Shown piece by piece: positions 10,724-16,005 of a stretch of DNA of 64,000 bases. The stretch lies in NCBI RefSeq assembly GCF_006715635.1, contig NZ_VFNP01000001.1, positions 1,922,001-1,986,000 of the forward strand. The letters are read 5' to 3'. The notes under the pieces are model-generated. The model did no database searches and had not been told where the DNA came from. It was given only the letters and a program-made list of their open reading frames with translations. Every line of letters starts with the position of its first letter. Position 1 is the stretch's first letter. Made by a program: the position numbers and the translations under genes. Origin of the DNA: Streptomyces sp. SLBN-118. GTDB taxonomy: Bacteria; Actinomycetota; Actinomycetes; Streptomycetales; Streptomycetaceae.

Positions 10724-11023
10724 TGGGGCGCTGCTCGCCGATGAAGCGGGTCACCTCCGCGGCGAGCCGCGGCACGGGGACAGGGGCGAGAGCTCCGTCC
10801 GGGTGTCCGGTCAGCTCCACGCGATCGACGCCCAGTTCCCGTGCGGCGCAGGCGAGTTCGTCCGCCCGCACGGTGTGCAGGTCGCCGGGCCTGCCGTGCA
10901 GGGTGGACGACTCGCCATGGGTGAAGCAGAGGACGCCCGTGGGCACATCGGAGCCGGACTGCAGGGCGAGCAGGCCGCCCAGACCGAACGACTCGTCTCG
11001 GGGTGGGCGACCACCGCCGGCAC
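10724..11023 (-). pseudogene. truncated, frameshifted PIG-L (LmbE-like) deacetylase
   Basis: The minus strand encodes LCFTHGESSTLHGRPGDLHT, then RADELACAARELGV and ELTGHPDGAL, the core of zinc-dependent PIG-L/LmbE N-acetyl-sugar deacetylases. The N-terminal metal motif AHPDDES is recovered only if one base is restored near 10999, because the actual reading is AHPETSR. The gene starts at a GTG (11023) and stops being homologous after EVTRFIGEQRP at about 10724, so more than half is missing. It meets the truncated cellulase tail to tail. Confidence 0.7.
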
Positions 11024-11072: not shown

Positions 11073-11546
11073 TCAGGTGTAGATGATCTGACCGCCGGCC
11101 GCGTGCTCGTAGAACTCGCCGACCGTGATGACGCCCTGCACCTGCTCGACGAGGTCGTCCTTGTCGAGTTCGAAAAGGTCCACCGACGCCTTGCAGGCGT
11201 AGATGCCCGCGCCGGTGTCGACGATCATCTCGATGAACTCGGGGATCGGCGGGATGTCGAGCTTGTCCATCTTGCGTTCCATGTAGCGGGTGACCAGGTC
11301 GGGGACTCCCGGCATACCGCCCAGCAGGGTCGGCAGGTGCAGACCGGGGTTGCCGACCGTGGCCAGCTTGATGTGCTCCCAGCGCTTCTTCGTGATCGCG
11401 TCCAGGCCGAAGAAGGTGAAGAACAGATCGGCCTCGATGCCTTCGGCGCGAGCGCCGTTGGCCATGATCAAGGCTGGGTAGATCCCTTCCAGGGAACCCT
11501 TGGAAACGATGATCGAGACCTTCTCGATCGTGGTGGTGTCGGCCAT
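11073..11546 (-). CDS. DsrE/DsrF/DrsH-like sulfur-transfer protein
   Basis: 157 residues. It matches the DsrE-like family of small sulfur-relay proteins: an N-terminal strand (KVSIIVSKGSLE), a Rossmann-like alpha/beta fold and a C-terminal segment IYACKASVDLFEL with C118, the position of the persulfide-carrying Cys in the family. Such proteins take up or pass on sulfane sulfur from partners such as TusA or DsrC. It is the third gene of a minus-strand unit, 13 bp after the DsrC-like gene. No TusA is present in the window. An extra in-frame Met lies one codon upstream. The family assignment is firm; the partner and direction of sulfur flow are inferred. Confidence 0.82.
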   Translation of the reverse strand: MADTTTIEKVSIIVSKGSLEGIYPALIMANGARAEGIEADLFFTFFGLDAITKKRWEHIKLATVGNPGLHLPTLLGGMPGVPDLVTRYMERKMDKLDIPPIPEFIEMIVDTGAGIYACKASVDLFELDKDDLVEQVQGVITVGEFYEHAAGGQIIYT

Positions 11547-11559
11547 CACTGATCCCTTC

Positions 11560-11877
11560 TCAGATGCAGCCGCGCGGCGCGGGAATGCCGGCGACCTTCG
11601 CCGCGGTCTTCGCCGGGCCCTTGGGGAAGAGCTGGTACAGCTCCTTGACGCTCACTCCGGAGGTCTTGCCGAGCACGCGCACGGTCGGCCCAGTGCCCTT
11701 GGCGGCGTACTGCTCGCGCATGAAGCGGATGACGGTCCAGTGCCGGTCGGTCAGCGTGTCGATGCCGGCTTCCTTGGCGATCTGCTCGGCCATCTGCTCG
11801 GTCCAGCGGGCGGGGTCGGTGAAGAAACCCTCGTCGTCGACGGGGATGTCGGTGTTGTCATAGGTGGCAGTGGGCAT
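11560..11877 (-). CDS. TusE/DsrC/DsvC-family sulfur relay protein
   Basis: 105 residues, the normal family length. The C-terminal arm ends PRGCI with the strictly conserved penultimate Cys (C104). The second arm Cys of true DsrC, 11 residues earlier, is absent (AKTAAKVAG instead of a GxxxC pattern), so it resembles single-Cys TusE-like relay proteins and not the two-Cys DsrC that serves sulfite reductase. The N-terminus has the family pattern DEGFFTDPARWTEQMA. It sits between an SQR-like flavoprotein gene and a DsrE gene, suggesting a persulfide relay. No dsrAB is present. DsrC-like proteins are unusual in Streptomyces as far as I know. Confidence 0.85.
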   Translation of the reverse strand: MPTATYDNTDIPVDDEGFFTDPARWTEQMAEQIAKEAGIDTLTDRHWTVIRFMREQYAAKGTGPTVRVLGKTSGVSVKELYQLFPKGPAKTAAKVAGIPAPRGCI

Positions 11878-11928: not shown

Positions 11929-13170
11929 TCAGTCGGATGCGCGGTGCTTGCCGTGCTCGGGCATCGCCGAGCCGATGCCGGGCAGCTCCCGGCCGGGCAG
12001 CAGGCTGTGCCAGTACAGCCATTCGAAGGCGAGCTTGCCGAGATGGGCGGCGTGCGACTCCTTCAGCAGCGGCAGGCCGACCGGACCCGGGAAGTGGCCG
12101 GGCAGCGGTTCGGTGTCGTAGTTGAAGTCGATCAGCAGCGCCTTGTGGAAGCCGGTCTCGACGAAACAGTTGGCGTGCCCGTCGAAGGAGGCGTCCAGCG
12201 GCTGTCCGGCAAGGAAGCGGCCGATGTTGTGCACCAGCACCTCGCCTTCGAAGTGAGCCACCGAACCGGCCCTGGAGGCGGGCAGTCCGGCCGCATCCCC
12301 GATCGCGAACACCTCCGTACGATCCGGGTGTTGGAGGGTGTGCGGGTCGACCGGCACGAAGCCCAGTTCGTCGCCCAGGCCCTCGGAACGCTCCACGTAC
12401 TCGGCGCCGCCGTGCAGGGGCACCACGACCGCCAGGTCGAAGGCCACCTCCCGCTCGTCGTACGACACCAGCCGGCCACCCGCGCCGTCGACCTCGCCGA
12501 GCGTGAACTCCGTGACCAGCTCGACCTCCTTCTCCTTCAGCAGCCCGCTGAGCGCCTTGGCCGCGACCGGCTTGGTGAAGGCCGCGTCCAGCGGGGTGGC
12601 GTACGTCAGCTCGACCCGGTCGCGGATGCCTCGGTTCCGGAAGTACCAGTCGGCCAGAAAAGCGAACTCCAAAGGCGCTACGGGGCACTTGAGGGGCAGG
12701 TCGGCGACGTCGACCACCAGGCGGCCGCCGTCGAAGCGTTCCAGCGCTTCGTGCAGACCCACGGCTCCGGTCAGGTCGTAGAAGGTGAAGACCTTCTCGC
12801 CCCAGCCGGGGCCGGTGAGTCCCTCGGTCTCCTCCGGCAGCAGCCTGGCCCCGGTGGCGACCACGAGGACGTCGTAGCCGAGGCGGATGCCGCCGCCGAG
12901 GTGCACGGTCCGCGCGTCCAGGTCGACCCGCTCGATCAGTGCCTGCTTGTAGTCGACCGCCGGGTTCAGCTGCCGCGGGCGGGGGCGCACGAGGTGGTCG
13001 GGCGGAGCGAGCCCGAAGGACACGAACAGCAGGCCGGGCTGGTAGAGGTGGTCGTCGTTCTGGTCGACGACCGTGATCCGGCACTCACGTTGGTCGTACG
13101 TGCGGCACAGGCGGTTGGCCGTCATGGTGCCGGCGGTGCCGCCGCCAAGAATCACGATGTGTTTGCCCAT
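11929..13170 (-). CDS. SQR-like FAD-dependent oxidoreductase
   Basis: 413 residues from the ATG at 13170. The N-terminal FAD site reads IVILGGGTAGTMTANR, and a second dinucleotide-site signature, EVFAIGDAAGLP, lies near residues 286-297. Cys162 in LKCPVAPLEF and Cys335 in ANCFVETG are at the positions of the redox Cys pair of sulfide:quinone oxidoreductases, which oxidise sulfide to a protein-bound persulfide or polysulfide and reduce quinone. Amphipathic C-terminal helices (FEWLYWHSLLPG) could seat it on the membrane. It is the first gene of the unit leading to the DsrC and DsrE genes. Exact substrate is inferred. Confidence 0.8.
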   Translation of the reverse strand: MGKHIVILGGGTAGTMTANRLCRTYDQRECRITVVDQNDDHLYQPGLLFVSFGLAPPDHLVRPRPRQLNPAVDYKQALIERVDLDARTVHLGGGIRLGYDVLVVATGARLLPEETEGLTGPGWGEKVFTFYDLTGAVGLHEALERFDGGRLVVDVADLPLKCPVAPLEFAFLADWYFRNRGIRDRVELTYATPLDAAFTKPVAAKALSGLLKEKEVELVTEFTLGEVDGAGGRLVSYDEREVAFDLAVVVPLHGGAEYVERSEGLGDELGFVPVDPHTLQHPDRTEVFAIGDAAGLPASRAGSVAHFEGEVLVHNIGRFLAGQPLDASFDGHANCFVETGFHKALLIDFNYDTEPLPGHFPGPVGLPLLKESHAAHLGKLAFEWLYWHSLLPGRELPGIGSAMPEHGKHRASD

Positions 13171-13227
13171 GTCCCCACTGTCGTGCGGGAAACGGGAGCG
13201 GGGCATGGGCCGCTGGTCCCCACCCGA

Positions 13228-13243
13228 GTACCCACCCGGGTAT
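13228..13243. promoter_or_regulatory. CsoR/CstR-type operator, site 1
   Basis: GTACCCACCCGGGTAT is a near-palindrome of TACCC-N4-GGGTA form, 57 bp before the SQR-like gene. The pattern resembles operators of the CsoR/CstR family of copper- or persulfide-sensing repressors. It differs from sites 2 and 3 only in one outer base. Confidence 0.55.
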
Positions 13244-13304
13244 GTCTTCGGCCGGGCCCACCGGCCCCAGGACCCCACACGTCCGGCACGAACGCCCTGA
13301 TAAA

Positions 13305-13320
13305 ATACCCAGCAGGGTAT
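13305..13320. promoter_or_regulatory. CsoR/CstR-type operator, site 2
   Basis: ATACCCAGCAGGGTAT has perfect 6-bp arms around four bases. It lies in the divergent promoter region, 127 bp before osmC and 134 bp before the SQR-like gene, so it could control either direction. Confidence 0.65.
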
Positions 13321-13447
13321 ACCGGGGGCGAAATCAGGCACGAGGGCCGAACGGTCCCCGGCGCACCCCGTCGGCCCCTCGCCCCGCCCCCGCACTCAGT
13401 TGTCGACTGGAATCCGGAACAGTCGACACGGCGAGAAGGGCTCGGCC

Positions 13448-13900
13448 ATGACCGGCAGCACACCGCAGACCCTCGGCACGAACCGCACCCAGTCCGTGGA
13501 CGTGCATCGTCTGGAGGTCATCCACGTCGACGGCGACACCTACAACGTGGACGTCCGCGAACACCGCCTCCAGGTCGACCAGCCCCTGGAGGCGGGCGGC
13601 ACGGACACCGCGCCCACCCCCACCGAGCTGTTCGCGGCCTCGCTGGCCACCTGCGTGGCGTTCTACGCGGGCCGCTACCTGCACCGGCACGGCCTGCCCC
13701 GCGCCGGCCTGCGCGTCCGCACGGAGTTCACCATGGCCACCGACCGCCCGGCGCGTGTCACCGCCCTGCGCCTCGTGGTCGTCCCGCCGCCGGAGCTGCC
13801 CGAGGAGCGGCGGGCGGCCCTGTTGGCGGTGGTCTCGCACTGCCCGGTCCACAACACCCTCCACCAGCCTCCTGAGATCGACATCGAGCTGGAGCCATGA
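13448..13900 (+). CDS. OsmC family protein
   Basis: 150 residues from the ATG at 13448. It has the OsmC/Ohr fold signatures: PTELFAASLATCVAFYAGRY with the first Cys and SHCPVHNTL with the second. These paired Cys residues reduce organic hydroperoxides in Ohr/OsmC proteins, and some homologues act on persulfides. Its stop overlaps the next gene (ATGA, 13897-13900), so it is translationally coupled to the cysteine-desulfurase-like gene. It opens the right-hand unit of the sulfur block, downstream of operator site 2. Substrate class is inferred from the neighbours. Confidence 0.82.
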   Translation: MTGSTPQTLGTNRTQSVDVHRLEVIHVDGDTYNVDVREHRLQVDQPLEAGGTDTAPTPTELFAASLATCVAFYAGRYLHRHGLPRAGLRVRTEFTMATDRPARVTALRLVVVPPPELPEERRAALLAVVSHCPVHNTLHQPPEIDIELEP

Positions 13901-15585
13901 GTACGGCGCCGACCGTGTCGGCACTGCTGGACAGCATCCGGAGCGGCCTCATCGGCGACGACGAGGTAGTGGACGGGCCGTACGGCCCGAAGCGGATCGT
14001 CTACGCCGACTACACCGCATCCGGCCGCTCCCTCGACTTCGTCGAGGACTTCGTCCGCGAACACGTGCTCCCGCATTACGGCAACACCCACACCGAGAGC
14101 TCCAGCACCGGGGCGCAGACGACCCGACTGCGCGAGGACGCCCGCCGAATCATCCGGGACGCGGTCGGCGGCACCGGGGACGATCTGGTGATCTTCTGCG
14201 GCTCCGGGGCCACGGCCGCTGTCAACAAGCTGGTCGGCATCCTTCAGCTGCGCCGCCCGGACCCGCCGCCTCCGGACGAACGGCCCCTGGTGTTCGTGGG
14301 CCCCTACGAGCACCACTCCAACGAGCTGCCCTGGCGCGAGTCCATCGCCGACGTCGTAGTCGTCGACGAGGACGCCGACGGCCACATCGATCTCGCCGCA
14401 CTCGAAGCGGGGCTACGGCGGCACGCCGACCGTCCGCTGCTGATCGGCAGCTTCTCCGCCGCCTCCAACGTCACCGGCATCCTCACCGACACCGACCGCA
14501 TCGCCCGGCTGCTGCACGCGCACGGCGCCCTGTCCTTCTGGGACTACGCGGCCGCCGCCCCGTACATCCCGATCCGGATGACCGAGAGCGCTCCGGGCGC
14601 CGGGGACCACAAGGACGCGCTGTTCCTGTCCCCGCACAAGTTCGTCGGCGGACCACAGACCCCGGGCGTGCTCGTCGCACGGCGCGACCTGGTCCGCAAC
14701 CGAGTGCCGACCGCTCCGGGCGGCGGCACGGTAGCCTTCGTCGACCCGACCGGCCACCGCTATCTCGACGACCCGGTCGCCCGGGAGGAGGGCGGCACCC
14801 CGGCGATCGTCGAGTCCATCCGCGCCGGTCTGGTCTTCGCCCTCAAGCAGGCCGTCGGCACCGGCACCATCCAGGCCGCCGAGGAGCGGCACTGGAAACG
14901 TGCGCTCGCCCGGTGGGCCCGCGACTCCGGCATCGAGATCCTCGGCAACCACCACGCCCGGCGGCTGTCCATCGTCTCCTTCCGCATCCGCCACGGCGAG
15001 CACGCCTACCTGCACCACAACTACGTCGTCGCCCTGCTCAACGACCTCTTCGGCATCCAGGCCCGCGGCGGCTGCTCCTGCGCCGGGCCCTACGGGCACC
15101 GACTGCTCGCCATCGACGCCGCCACCTCCCACGCCCTGCTCGACGAGGTCACCCGCGGCTGTGACGGCATCAAACCCGGCTGGATCCGCATCAACTTCAA
15201 CTACTTCATCAGCGACACCGTCCGCGACTACCTCATCGACGCCGTCGGCCTGATCGCCGCGTACGGCCACCGGCTCCTGTCCGACTACCGCTTCGACCCG
15301 CACACCGGCCTGTGGCGCCACCGCACCGGCCCGGCCGATCCCCCGCTGCGGCTGACCGACGTACGTTTTGCCGCCGACGGACGGATCACCGCCCCGGCCG
15401 TGCGCCACCGCCGGCTTGGCGAGGAGGCACTGACCGGCCAACTCGACCGCGCCCGCGAGGTACTGGCCGCTCGTCCCGAGCGATTCGACGACGGCCCCAC
15501 CGGACTGCCGGCCGACTTCGAGCGCATGCGCTGGTTCCCGCTGCCGCCCGTCTGCCTGGAACAAACCCGGCCCGGCGCCGGTTGA
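13897..15585 (+). CDS. class V aminotransferase, cysteine desulfurase-like
   Basis: 562 residues, PLP-dependent, fold type I. The PLP Lys is K248 in LSPHKFVGGPQT, with upstream ligands HHSNELPW and SNVTGI. A Cys-rich loop, RGGCSCAGPYG (C393, C395), lies where cysteine desulfurases carry the persulfide-forming Cys. It is about 150 residues longer than typical SufS/CsdA, the extra length being a C-terminal extension without a recognised domain. It is coupled to osmC by a 4-bp overlap and followed by operator site 3 and thioredoxin. Desulfurase or persulfide-lyase activity is probable; the physiological substrate is unknown. Confidence 0.8.
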   Translation: MSTAPTVSALLDSIRSGLIGDDEVVDGPYGPKRIVYADYTASGRSLDFVEDFVREHVLPHYGNTHTESSSTGAQTTRLREDARRIIRDAVGGTGDDLVIFCGSGATAAVNKLVGILQLRRPDPPPPDERPLVFVGPYEHHSNELPWRESIADVVVVDEDADGHIDLAALEAGLRRHADRPLLIGSFSAASNVTGILTDTDRIARLLHAHGALSFWDYAAAAPYIPIRMTESAPGAGDHKDALFLSPHKFVGGPQTPGVLVARRDLVRNRVPTAPGGGTVAFVDPTGHRYLDDPVAREEGGTPAIVESIRAGLVFALKQAVGTGTIQAAEERHWKRALARWARDSGIEILGNHHARRLSIVSFRIRHGEHAYLHHNYVVALLNDLFGIQARGGCSCAGPYGHRLLAIDAATSHALLDEVTRGCDGIKPGWIRINFNYFISDTVRDYLIDAVGLIAAYGHRLLSDYRFDPHTGLWRHRTGPADPPLRLTDVRFAADGRITAPAVRHRRLGEEALTGQLDRAREVLAARPERFDDGPTGLPADFERMRWFPLPPVCLEQTRPGAG

Positions 15586-15598
15586 ACCGGACAGCAAA

Positions 15599-15614
15599 AT
15601 ACCCCACCGGGTAT
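15599..15614. promoter_or_regulatory. CsoR/CstR-type operator, site 3
   Basis: ATACCCCACCGGGTAT has perfect 6-bp arms around four bases, the same arms as site 2. It is 19 bp before the thioredoxin start, so thioredoxin probably also has its own regulated promoter or an internal control point. Confidence 0.65.
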
Positions 15615-15633: not shown

Positions 15634-16005
15634 ATGCCTACCGTGGAATTGACCAAAGACAACTTCGAGCAGACCGTCACCGGCTCCGAGATCCTGCTGA
15701 TCGACTTCTGGGCCGCCTGGTGCGGACCGTGCCGCATGTTCGGCCCCGTCTACGAGAAGGCCGCCGAGCGTCACCCGGACATCGCCTTCGGCAAGGTCGA
15801 CACCGAGGCGCAGCCCGAACTCGCCGGCGCCTTCCAGATCTCCTCCATCCCCACCCTGATGGCCGTCCGCGACCGGACTGTCCTGTACTCGCAGCCCGGC
15901 GCACTGCCACCGCAGGCACTGGAGGAACTCATCGGGAAGATCCGCGCCGTCGACATGGACGACGTGCGCCGGAAGGCCGCCGCGGGATCGACGAAAGCGA
16001 ACTGA
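15634..16005 (+). CDS. trxA: thioredoxin
   Basis: 123 residues, slightly longer than standard thioredoxin. The active site WCGPC (C30, C33) and the cis-Pro loop SSIPTLM are present. It starts at an ATG behind GAGAGGGA. It is the last gene of the right-hand sulfur unit, 48 bp after the desulfurase-like gene and preceded by its own operator-like palindrome. A plausible role is release of persulfide sulfur or reduction of disulfides made by the block. It is one of several thioredoxins expected in a Streptomyces genome. Confidence 0.88.
   Translation: MPTVELTKDNFEQTVTGSEILLIDFWAAWCGPCRMFGPVYEKAAERHPDIAFGKVDTEAQPELAGAFQISSIPTLMAVRDRTVLYSQPGALPPQALEELIGKIRAVDMDDVRRKAAAGSTKAN

Follow-up and report, generated by a model that had tools for sequence, protein, structure and literature searches.

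Candidate operators of a persulfide-sensing CsoR-type repressor before sulfur genes of Streptomyces sp. SLBN-118, and their one-base difference from copper operators

In Streptomyces coelicolor, the sulfane-sulfur circuit SCO0618-SCO0621 is controlled by ScCsoR, whose published operator, ATACCn6GGTAT, is equivalent to ATACCC and GGGTAT arms separated by four bases (N4) and occurs twice before the gene for persulfide dioxygenase (PDO); operator binding and its release by polysulfide were reported, Cys37 and Cys66 were described as required for the polysulfide response, and the circuit was tied to antibiotic production and sporulation (PMC7533328). Staphylococcus aureus CstR is likewise a persulfide sensor of the CsoR family, the links described for it being tri- and tetrasulfides, whereas ScCsoR is said to be persulfidated on Cys37. 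A third sulfur regulator of this family, Thermus thermophilus TTHA1953, has dispersed targets and a 4-bp spacer between its inverted repeats, and was reported to be sensitive to a 1-bp change of that spacer (PMC10318464), while the sites reported for the copper-sensing CsoR of Streptomyces lividans have a 5-bp spacer (PMC3902906). Here we describe three palindromes of the N4 form (O1, O2 and O3) in a 64-kb stretch, hereafter the window, of the genome of Streptomyces sp. SLBN-118 (7.79 Mb, two contigs). They are very probably, as judged from sequence comparison, operators of a persulfide- or polysulfide-sensing repressor of the ScCsoR/CstR type (sCsoR), and spacer length would insulate them from the copper-sensing paralogue. 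The three sites are:

13228-13243: O1, GTACCCACCCGGGTAT, GTACCC-N4-GGGTAT with one arm mismatch, upstream of an operon that starts with a sulfide:quinone reductase (SQR)-like gene
13305-13320: O2, ATACCCAGCAGGGTAT, perfect ATACCC-N4-GGGTAT, upstream of osmC
15599-15614: O3, ATACCCCACCGGGTAT, perfect ATACCC-N4-GGGTAT, upstream of the thioredoxin gene trx

O1 is 57 bp from the SQR-like start codon (ATG at 13170, minus strand), O2 127 bp from that of osmC (13448), and O3 19 bp from that of trx (15634), with the stop of the preceding gene 13 bp before O3. A first-pass annotation of the window had reported three matching palindromes at promoter-like positions before these genes, and both coordinates and placement were confirmed, two sites being perfect and O1 carrying one mismatch. 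O2 and O3 are the only perfect copies in the whole genome, compared with 0.17 expected at the base composition of the window (0.0014 per 64 kb). Allowing up to one mismatch, the window holds three sites, whereas the expectation for 64 kb is 0.06 if bases are independent and 0.02 in a Markov-1 simulation (2 events in 6 Mb); allowing up to three, it holds 17 matches against 8.4 expected, a number reached by 0 of 100 shuffles. The palindromes are more frequent than chance, and their conservation, described below, is a stronger argument than their count.

A scan of the whole genome at one mismatch or fewer returned nine N4 sites (two for a reversed-pattern control), six of which precede sulfur genes: the three in the window, and three others with one mismatch each, 74-77 kb away (C1:1858621-1858636, 1861561 and 1861596). 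The remaining three (C2:23242, 2539740 and 3006652) fall within called open reading frames (ORFs; L023, L022 and L021) unrelated to sulfur or copper. The site at C1:1858621-1858636 stands 14 bp ahead of the sCsoR gene (C1:1858651-1858935, which is L018:6651-6935; 95 amino acids; about 77 kb from the window sites) and 49 bp ahead of a divergent rhodanese gene, and the other two are flanked by a PDO-type gene and, divergent from it, a DUF302-like gene; the cluster comprises rhodanese, CsoR-like, TauE, rhodanese-like and PDO genes. sCsoR has a Gly in place of the copper-ligand His, and its only cysteines, two in number, stand at a distance of 29 residues. Numbered from the GTG at L018:6651, these are Cys37 and Cys66, as published for ScCsoR; another GTG lies 6 bp upstream, and a start there would give 39 and 68 with the distance unchanged. 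The first-pass annotation had postulated a repressor encoded outside the window, which this gene bears out, and had suggested a genome scan for the motif, with random scatter as the outcome that would speak against a regulon; the motif was found ahead of a csoR/cstR-type gene, a rhodanese gene and a PDO-TauE cluster, and the distribution was not a random one, six of the nine sites being in sulfur promoters.

The likeness to the ScCsoR circuit lies in the cysteines, the gene arrangement (L018), the form of the 16-bp site and the pair of sites at PDO, and extends to the apparent targets of the two-cysteine repressor, namely its own gene, PDO-TauE and rhodanese. ScCsoR was, however, presented as governing a four-gene circuit, which the published account sets against H2S-oxidising circuits having both SQR and PDO, whereas in SLBN-118 N4 sites stand before SQR-DsrC-DsrE2, osmC-desulfurase and trx as well, and the SQR and PDO halves share one operator class. 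CstR differs in that its targets are described as usually lying near cstR, and TTHA1953 in its Sox-type targets, in a longer palindrome that lacks a continuous G-tract, and in that NaHS was reported to cause no loss of DNA binding (PMC10318464). A CsoR-family persulfide regulon is of a known kind. Neither its extension to SQR-DsrC-DsrE2, OsmC, a desulfurase-like enzyme and thioredoxin nor the clean division between N4 and N5 (five-base spacer) sites set out below was found in the literature searched, and papers on CstR/CsoR paralogues beyond it may state operator spacing. The six genes of the window cluster are:

11073..11549, minus strand: DsrE2-like sulfur carrier, Pfam PF13686, with Cys119 (counted from a GTG start)
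11560..11877, minus strand: DsrC/TusE-family protein of the single-cysteine type (penultimate Cys), Pfam PF04358, TIGR03342
11929..13170, minus strand: SQR-like gene, type III sulfide:quinone reductase, NCBIfam NF049943, 555.8 bits (cut-off 525)
13448..13900, plus strand: OsmC-like protein, Pfam PF02566
13897..15585, plus strand: protein of the class V aminotransferase fold, SufS/cysteine-desulfurase-like, with an SPHK lysine motif and CSCA cysteines
15634..16005, plus strand: thioredoxin (WCGPC), Pfam PF00085, TIGR01068, 97.7 bits (cut-off 96.8)

All six belong to sulfur or thiol families, and no copper efflux or chaperone gene adjoins them. The earlier proposal that they form a reactive-sulfur regulon is supported at the level of sequence by the N4 sites which they share with the sCsoR/rhodanese/PDO-TauE cluster.

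The same proposal had named a copper-sensing CsoR as the main alternative, in which O1 to O3 would be copper operators and the six genes a copper-stress response protecting thiols and Fe-S proteins. Copper stress harms thiols and Fe-S clusters, the half-sites are identical to those of copper operators, and in one genome an N4 site stands ahead of copZ (L280 in G005). A search of the SLBN-118 genome gave two PF02583 proteins, sCsoR and a copper CsoR that matches S. lividans CsoR (PDB 4adz, E=6.7e-59). The S. lividans copper regulon shares protein family and half-sites with the system described here, and its orthologue is present in this genome, but it differs in a 17-bp operator with a 5-bp spacer, a His ligand, and copZA/csoR targets that include none of the window genes. 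In SLBN-118 the copper genes have N5, not N4: four perfect ATACCC-N5-GGGTAT sites precede csoR, copZ, copA and a DUF4396 gene, and of two with one mismatch, both overlapping other predicted ORFs, the first is some 0.2 kb upstream of a second copA-like gene and the other some 0.5 kb upstream of a multicopper-oxidase gene; none of the six coincides with a window site.

The division recurs in other genomes. Twelve Streptomyces genomes carrying SQR (83-100% identity; SLBN-118 included) held 110 arm pairs with spacers of 0-12 bases (reversed control 6), of which 57 were N4 (55 plus 2 in SLBN-118) and 42 N5 (38 plus 4), the eleven other spacings totalling 11. A site was classed as sulfur or copper when a homologue of a reference gene of that class started within 450 bp downstream; 98 of the 99 sites were classified (N5 41 of 42, apparently because two csoR promoters sharing one N5 sequence were collapsed as duplicates). 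The N4 sites preceded sulfur genes in 49 cases, copper genes in none, and were unassigned in 8, while N5 sites preceded copper genes in 38/41, sulfur genes in none, and were unassigned in 3. An independent draw of 41 genomes (SLBN-118 and 40 others, none among the other 11 SQR genomes) had N4 in 18 genomes and N5 in 41; classification there, which took in part of the places listed (52 sites in 46 loci outside SLBN-118), gave 13 sulfur, 1 copper and 7 unassigned for N4, and 0 sulfur, 29 copper and 2 unassigned for N5 (29/31 copper). The split also follows the repressors themselves. The 12 genomes gave 35 PF02583 matches, and 30 of these were examined with their upstream regions: the copper-CsoR orthologues, in which a His stands four positions ahead of the second Cys, had N5 in their own promoters in 12/12, and the sCsoR proteins, with Gly at the His position, had N4 within one mismatch in 15/15, while three further His-type proteins (L098, L099 and L112) had neither. 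We rejected copper control on spacer length and gene context, and consider it very improbable; the alternative named in the first-pass annotation is disfavoured, the copper CsoR using N5 here and, one exception aside, across the genus.

A milder variant, in which both repressors bind and the spacer is merely a preference, so that copper and sulfur control would be joint, also draws on the identical arms, the 1-bp difference in spacer and the L280 exception. It is nevertheless unlikely, given the near-complete separation of N4 and N5 both by gene context and by paralogue. In the published account of TTHA1953, one spacer base more or less made binding about 10- to 15-fold weaker, and two Thermus paralogues showed little to no cross-binding, though their sites differ beyond spacing (PMC10318464). 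Given this effect of a 1-bp change on TTHA1953, the spacer can plausibly be the cause of the specificity which we propose for sCsoR, and not just a correlate of it.

Loci L162 and L160 hold a second sCsoR-type repressor (81% identity in L162) with an N4 site; its neighbours are an ABC-transporter-like gene and a zinc alcohol dehydrogenase-like gene, both named by eye. N5 operators recur before a DUF4396 gene (L025, L170, L173 and other N5 loci); the DUF4396 protein of SLBN-118 has a His-rich N-terminus and is a candidate copper-response membrane protein.

Thirteen intergenic regions, the window included, were picked because SQR and osmC adjoin, and in their alignment the operators were islands of conservation: all 13 had O1 in the N4 form, with no more than one mismatch in its arms, and O2 showed one arm change in L078, L194 and L197. 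O3 was found in 14/14 aligned trx upstream regions (window included), which is not an unbiased sample, because the regions were picked from loci already showing the site. Among the best 80 of 553 confirmed SQR loci (L190-L269), a set that overlaps the genome sample (L195 is apparently the G079 record), N4 stood 56-58 bp ahead of SQR in 11/11 Streptomyces loci. Most SQR loci of this set outside Streptomyces are without a site, since N4 was found less than 70 bp ahead in 4/69 (L201, L210, L214 and L260) and at about 170 bp in L203. When TACCC/GGGTA arms with spacers of 0-12 were counted over the 80 loci, N4 occurred 64 times, N5-N7 never, and the other spacings together 9 times. SQR, osmC and the sCsoR-PDO genes are contiguous in L072, L075, L076 and L078. 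In SLBN-118, G080, G104 and G217, SQR is distant from sCsoR or sits on a different contig, yet N4 is still in front of it. The separation of SQR and sCsoR in SLBN-118 is probably the result of a rearrangement, because some relatives keep these genes side by side. Several relatives have additional N4 sites, ahead of a second SQR, a second PDO and rhodanese genes.

Several observations weigh against the assignment of O1 to O3 to a sulfur-sensing repressor. No NCBIfam model exceeded its cut-off for sCsoR, its best weak match there was the copper-sensing RicR (48 bits, cut-off 175), and its best solved relatives bear CsoR-type names. O2 is lost in 3/13 aligned loci (L198, L196 and L081), and control of osmC is therefore not universal. 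The N4 site at L280 (G005:C1:2337517-2337532), the sole exception seen, precedes copZ-copA, so that the spacer code is not absolute. The script assigned no sulfur gene to 8/57 N4 sites in the 12 genomes and to 7/21 in the independent draw; of the eight, two precede, by eye, rhodanese or a second SQR (L076:16413 and L079:14574), three stand before a small unknown ORF in a sulfur island, L080:10351 is without a called gene, and L156 and L157 are outside sulfur loci. The spacer counts take in homologous sites of related genomes and hence are not independent, and the sulfur and copper reference genes derive from the site neighbours of SLBN-118 itself. Finally, the nine N4 sites with at most one mismatch compare with about 2.6-7.8 expected genome-wide (scaled from the window estimates), and this count alone is not decisive because the expectation comes near it. 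Together with the abundance of sites at two mismatches or fewer (71 against 47 in the control, a scan too noisy for use), this count might suggest that the palindromes are functionless chance products of a GC-rich sequence, or else sites of another regulator. We regard this as scarcely credible in view of the two perfect sites, both in the sulfur cluster of the window, of the footprint-like conservation in the alignments, and of the same site form ahead of the ScCsoR-type circuit.

For sCsoR as the regulator, we infer the following course of events. Without reactive sulfur, reduced sCsoR would sit on N4 operators overlapping or flanking the promoters of SQR-DsrC-DsrE2, osmC-desulfurase and trx in the window, and of its own gene with rhodanese and of PDO-TauE outside it; at trx and PDO, the GGGTAT half would be near the -10 region, judging by the published PDO transcription start. 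On a rise in sulfane sulfur, Cys37 would be persulfidated, as was shown for ScCsoR of S. coelicolor, and sCsoR would leave the DNA. SQR would then oxidise H2S and load sulfane sulfur, which DsrE2 and DsrC may carry on single cysteines and which PDO and rhodanese would convert to sulfite or thiosulfate, with TauE exporting the sulfite; thioredoxin and OsmC might reduce or clear persulfides, with the desulfurase-like enzyme perhaps recycling the sulfur of cysteine. The spacer, 4 bp for sulfur and 5 bp for copper, would insulate these genes from the copper paralogue with the same half-sites. We hold with moderate confidence that in Streptomyces one base pair of spacing is a physical insulator between two paralogous repressors with identical half-sites, and that this code was kept while the sulfur genes were scattered over the chromosome and new modules (type III SQR-DsrC-DsrE2, osmC-desulfurase, trx, and second SQR/PDO sets) were recruited by gaining N4.

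The SQR-like protein of the window matches PDB 8dhk and the mitochondrial SQR 6oi5 at E about 1e-38 with its two cysteines aligned, and these catalytic-type cysteines are kept among relatives (Cys162 in 79/80, Cys335 in 80/80). A selenocysteine TGA, the subtype implied by the name of NF049943, was not found in the window SQR, whose 413-codon frame has no internal stop; for a distant second SQR (about 30-35% identity) the selenocysteine idea was dropped, because the stops in the three copies inspected (L075, L080 and L058) sit at the natural C-terminus. The DsrC protein keeps its penultimate Cys104 in 75/76 covered relatives. The second cysteine of dissimilatory DsrC, which we take to stand 11 residues ahead of the penultimate one, is absent at the corresponding position 93 in 79/79 relatives (A/S/T/P there); Ala93 in the window protein rules out the two-cysteine, dissimilatory type, and the protein is single-Cys and TusE-like. 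The DsrE2-like protein keeps Cys119 in 75/75 covered relatives, and its match to NF047629 has E=1e-25 yet 90.6 bits, far below the cut-off of 210. The desulfurase-like enzyme scores 119 bits against NCBIfam sufS (cut-off 475), and its activity is therefore putative.

In the best 80 of 553 loci, DsrC lies behind SQR in 79 and DsrE2 in 77; L205 and L232, which lack DsrE2, stop at the locus edge there, and L215 (Amycolatopsis) is without both DsrC and DsrE2. All three genes occur in 77 of these 80, in an order conserved far beyond Streptomyces. The triad with a single-Cys DsrC spans Streptomyces to Gemmatimonadota, Myxococcota, Bacteroidota and Planctomycetota (e.g., L221, L225, L240 and L252), and in L240, a deltaproteobacterial locus, a DUF1641 domain is fused ahead of DsrC. 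Downstream of the triad, at window positions 10725-11003 (minus strand), is a remnant of a PIG-L-family deacetylase gene, seen as one local 93-residue match and 72% identical to an intact gene of 226 amino acids that follows DsrE2 in a relative (L080:9322-9999); the PIG-L family presumably suggests a link to mycothiol metabolism.

The SQR/osmC intergenic region contains a further candidate element:

13343..13358: candidate OsdR/DevR-type box, AGGGCCGAACGGTCCC, between O2 and osmC, with 3/16 mismatches to the OsdR consensus

The published 16-nt OsdR consensus is AGGGCCGATCGGCCCT (PMC5069765). The box is a conserved block in the intergenic alignment, with two mismatches to the consensus in L072, L196 and L197, and a second conserved block at 13207-13220 also resembles an OsdR/DevR (DosR-type) box. 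Conservation is the sole argument for these boxes, because the pattern is equally common in shuffles (113 OsdR-related matches at two mismatches in the window, 100 in shuffles).

How duplicated repressors avoid each other's regulons is a general question. In the present case the two operator classes have identical half-sites, and a single base pair of spacer is the consistent difference observed between their sequences, so that insertion or deletion of a single base would test the spacer idea directly. For Streptomyces, the N4 sites would extend the sulfane-sulfur circuit of S. coelicolor to sulfide oxidation, and the promoters in which they lie point to possible sulfur-stress roles for OsmC, the desulfurase-like enzyme and a dedicated thioredoxin.

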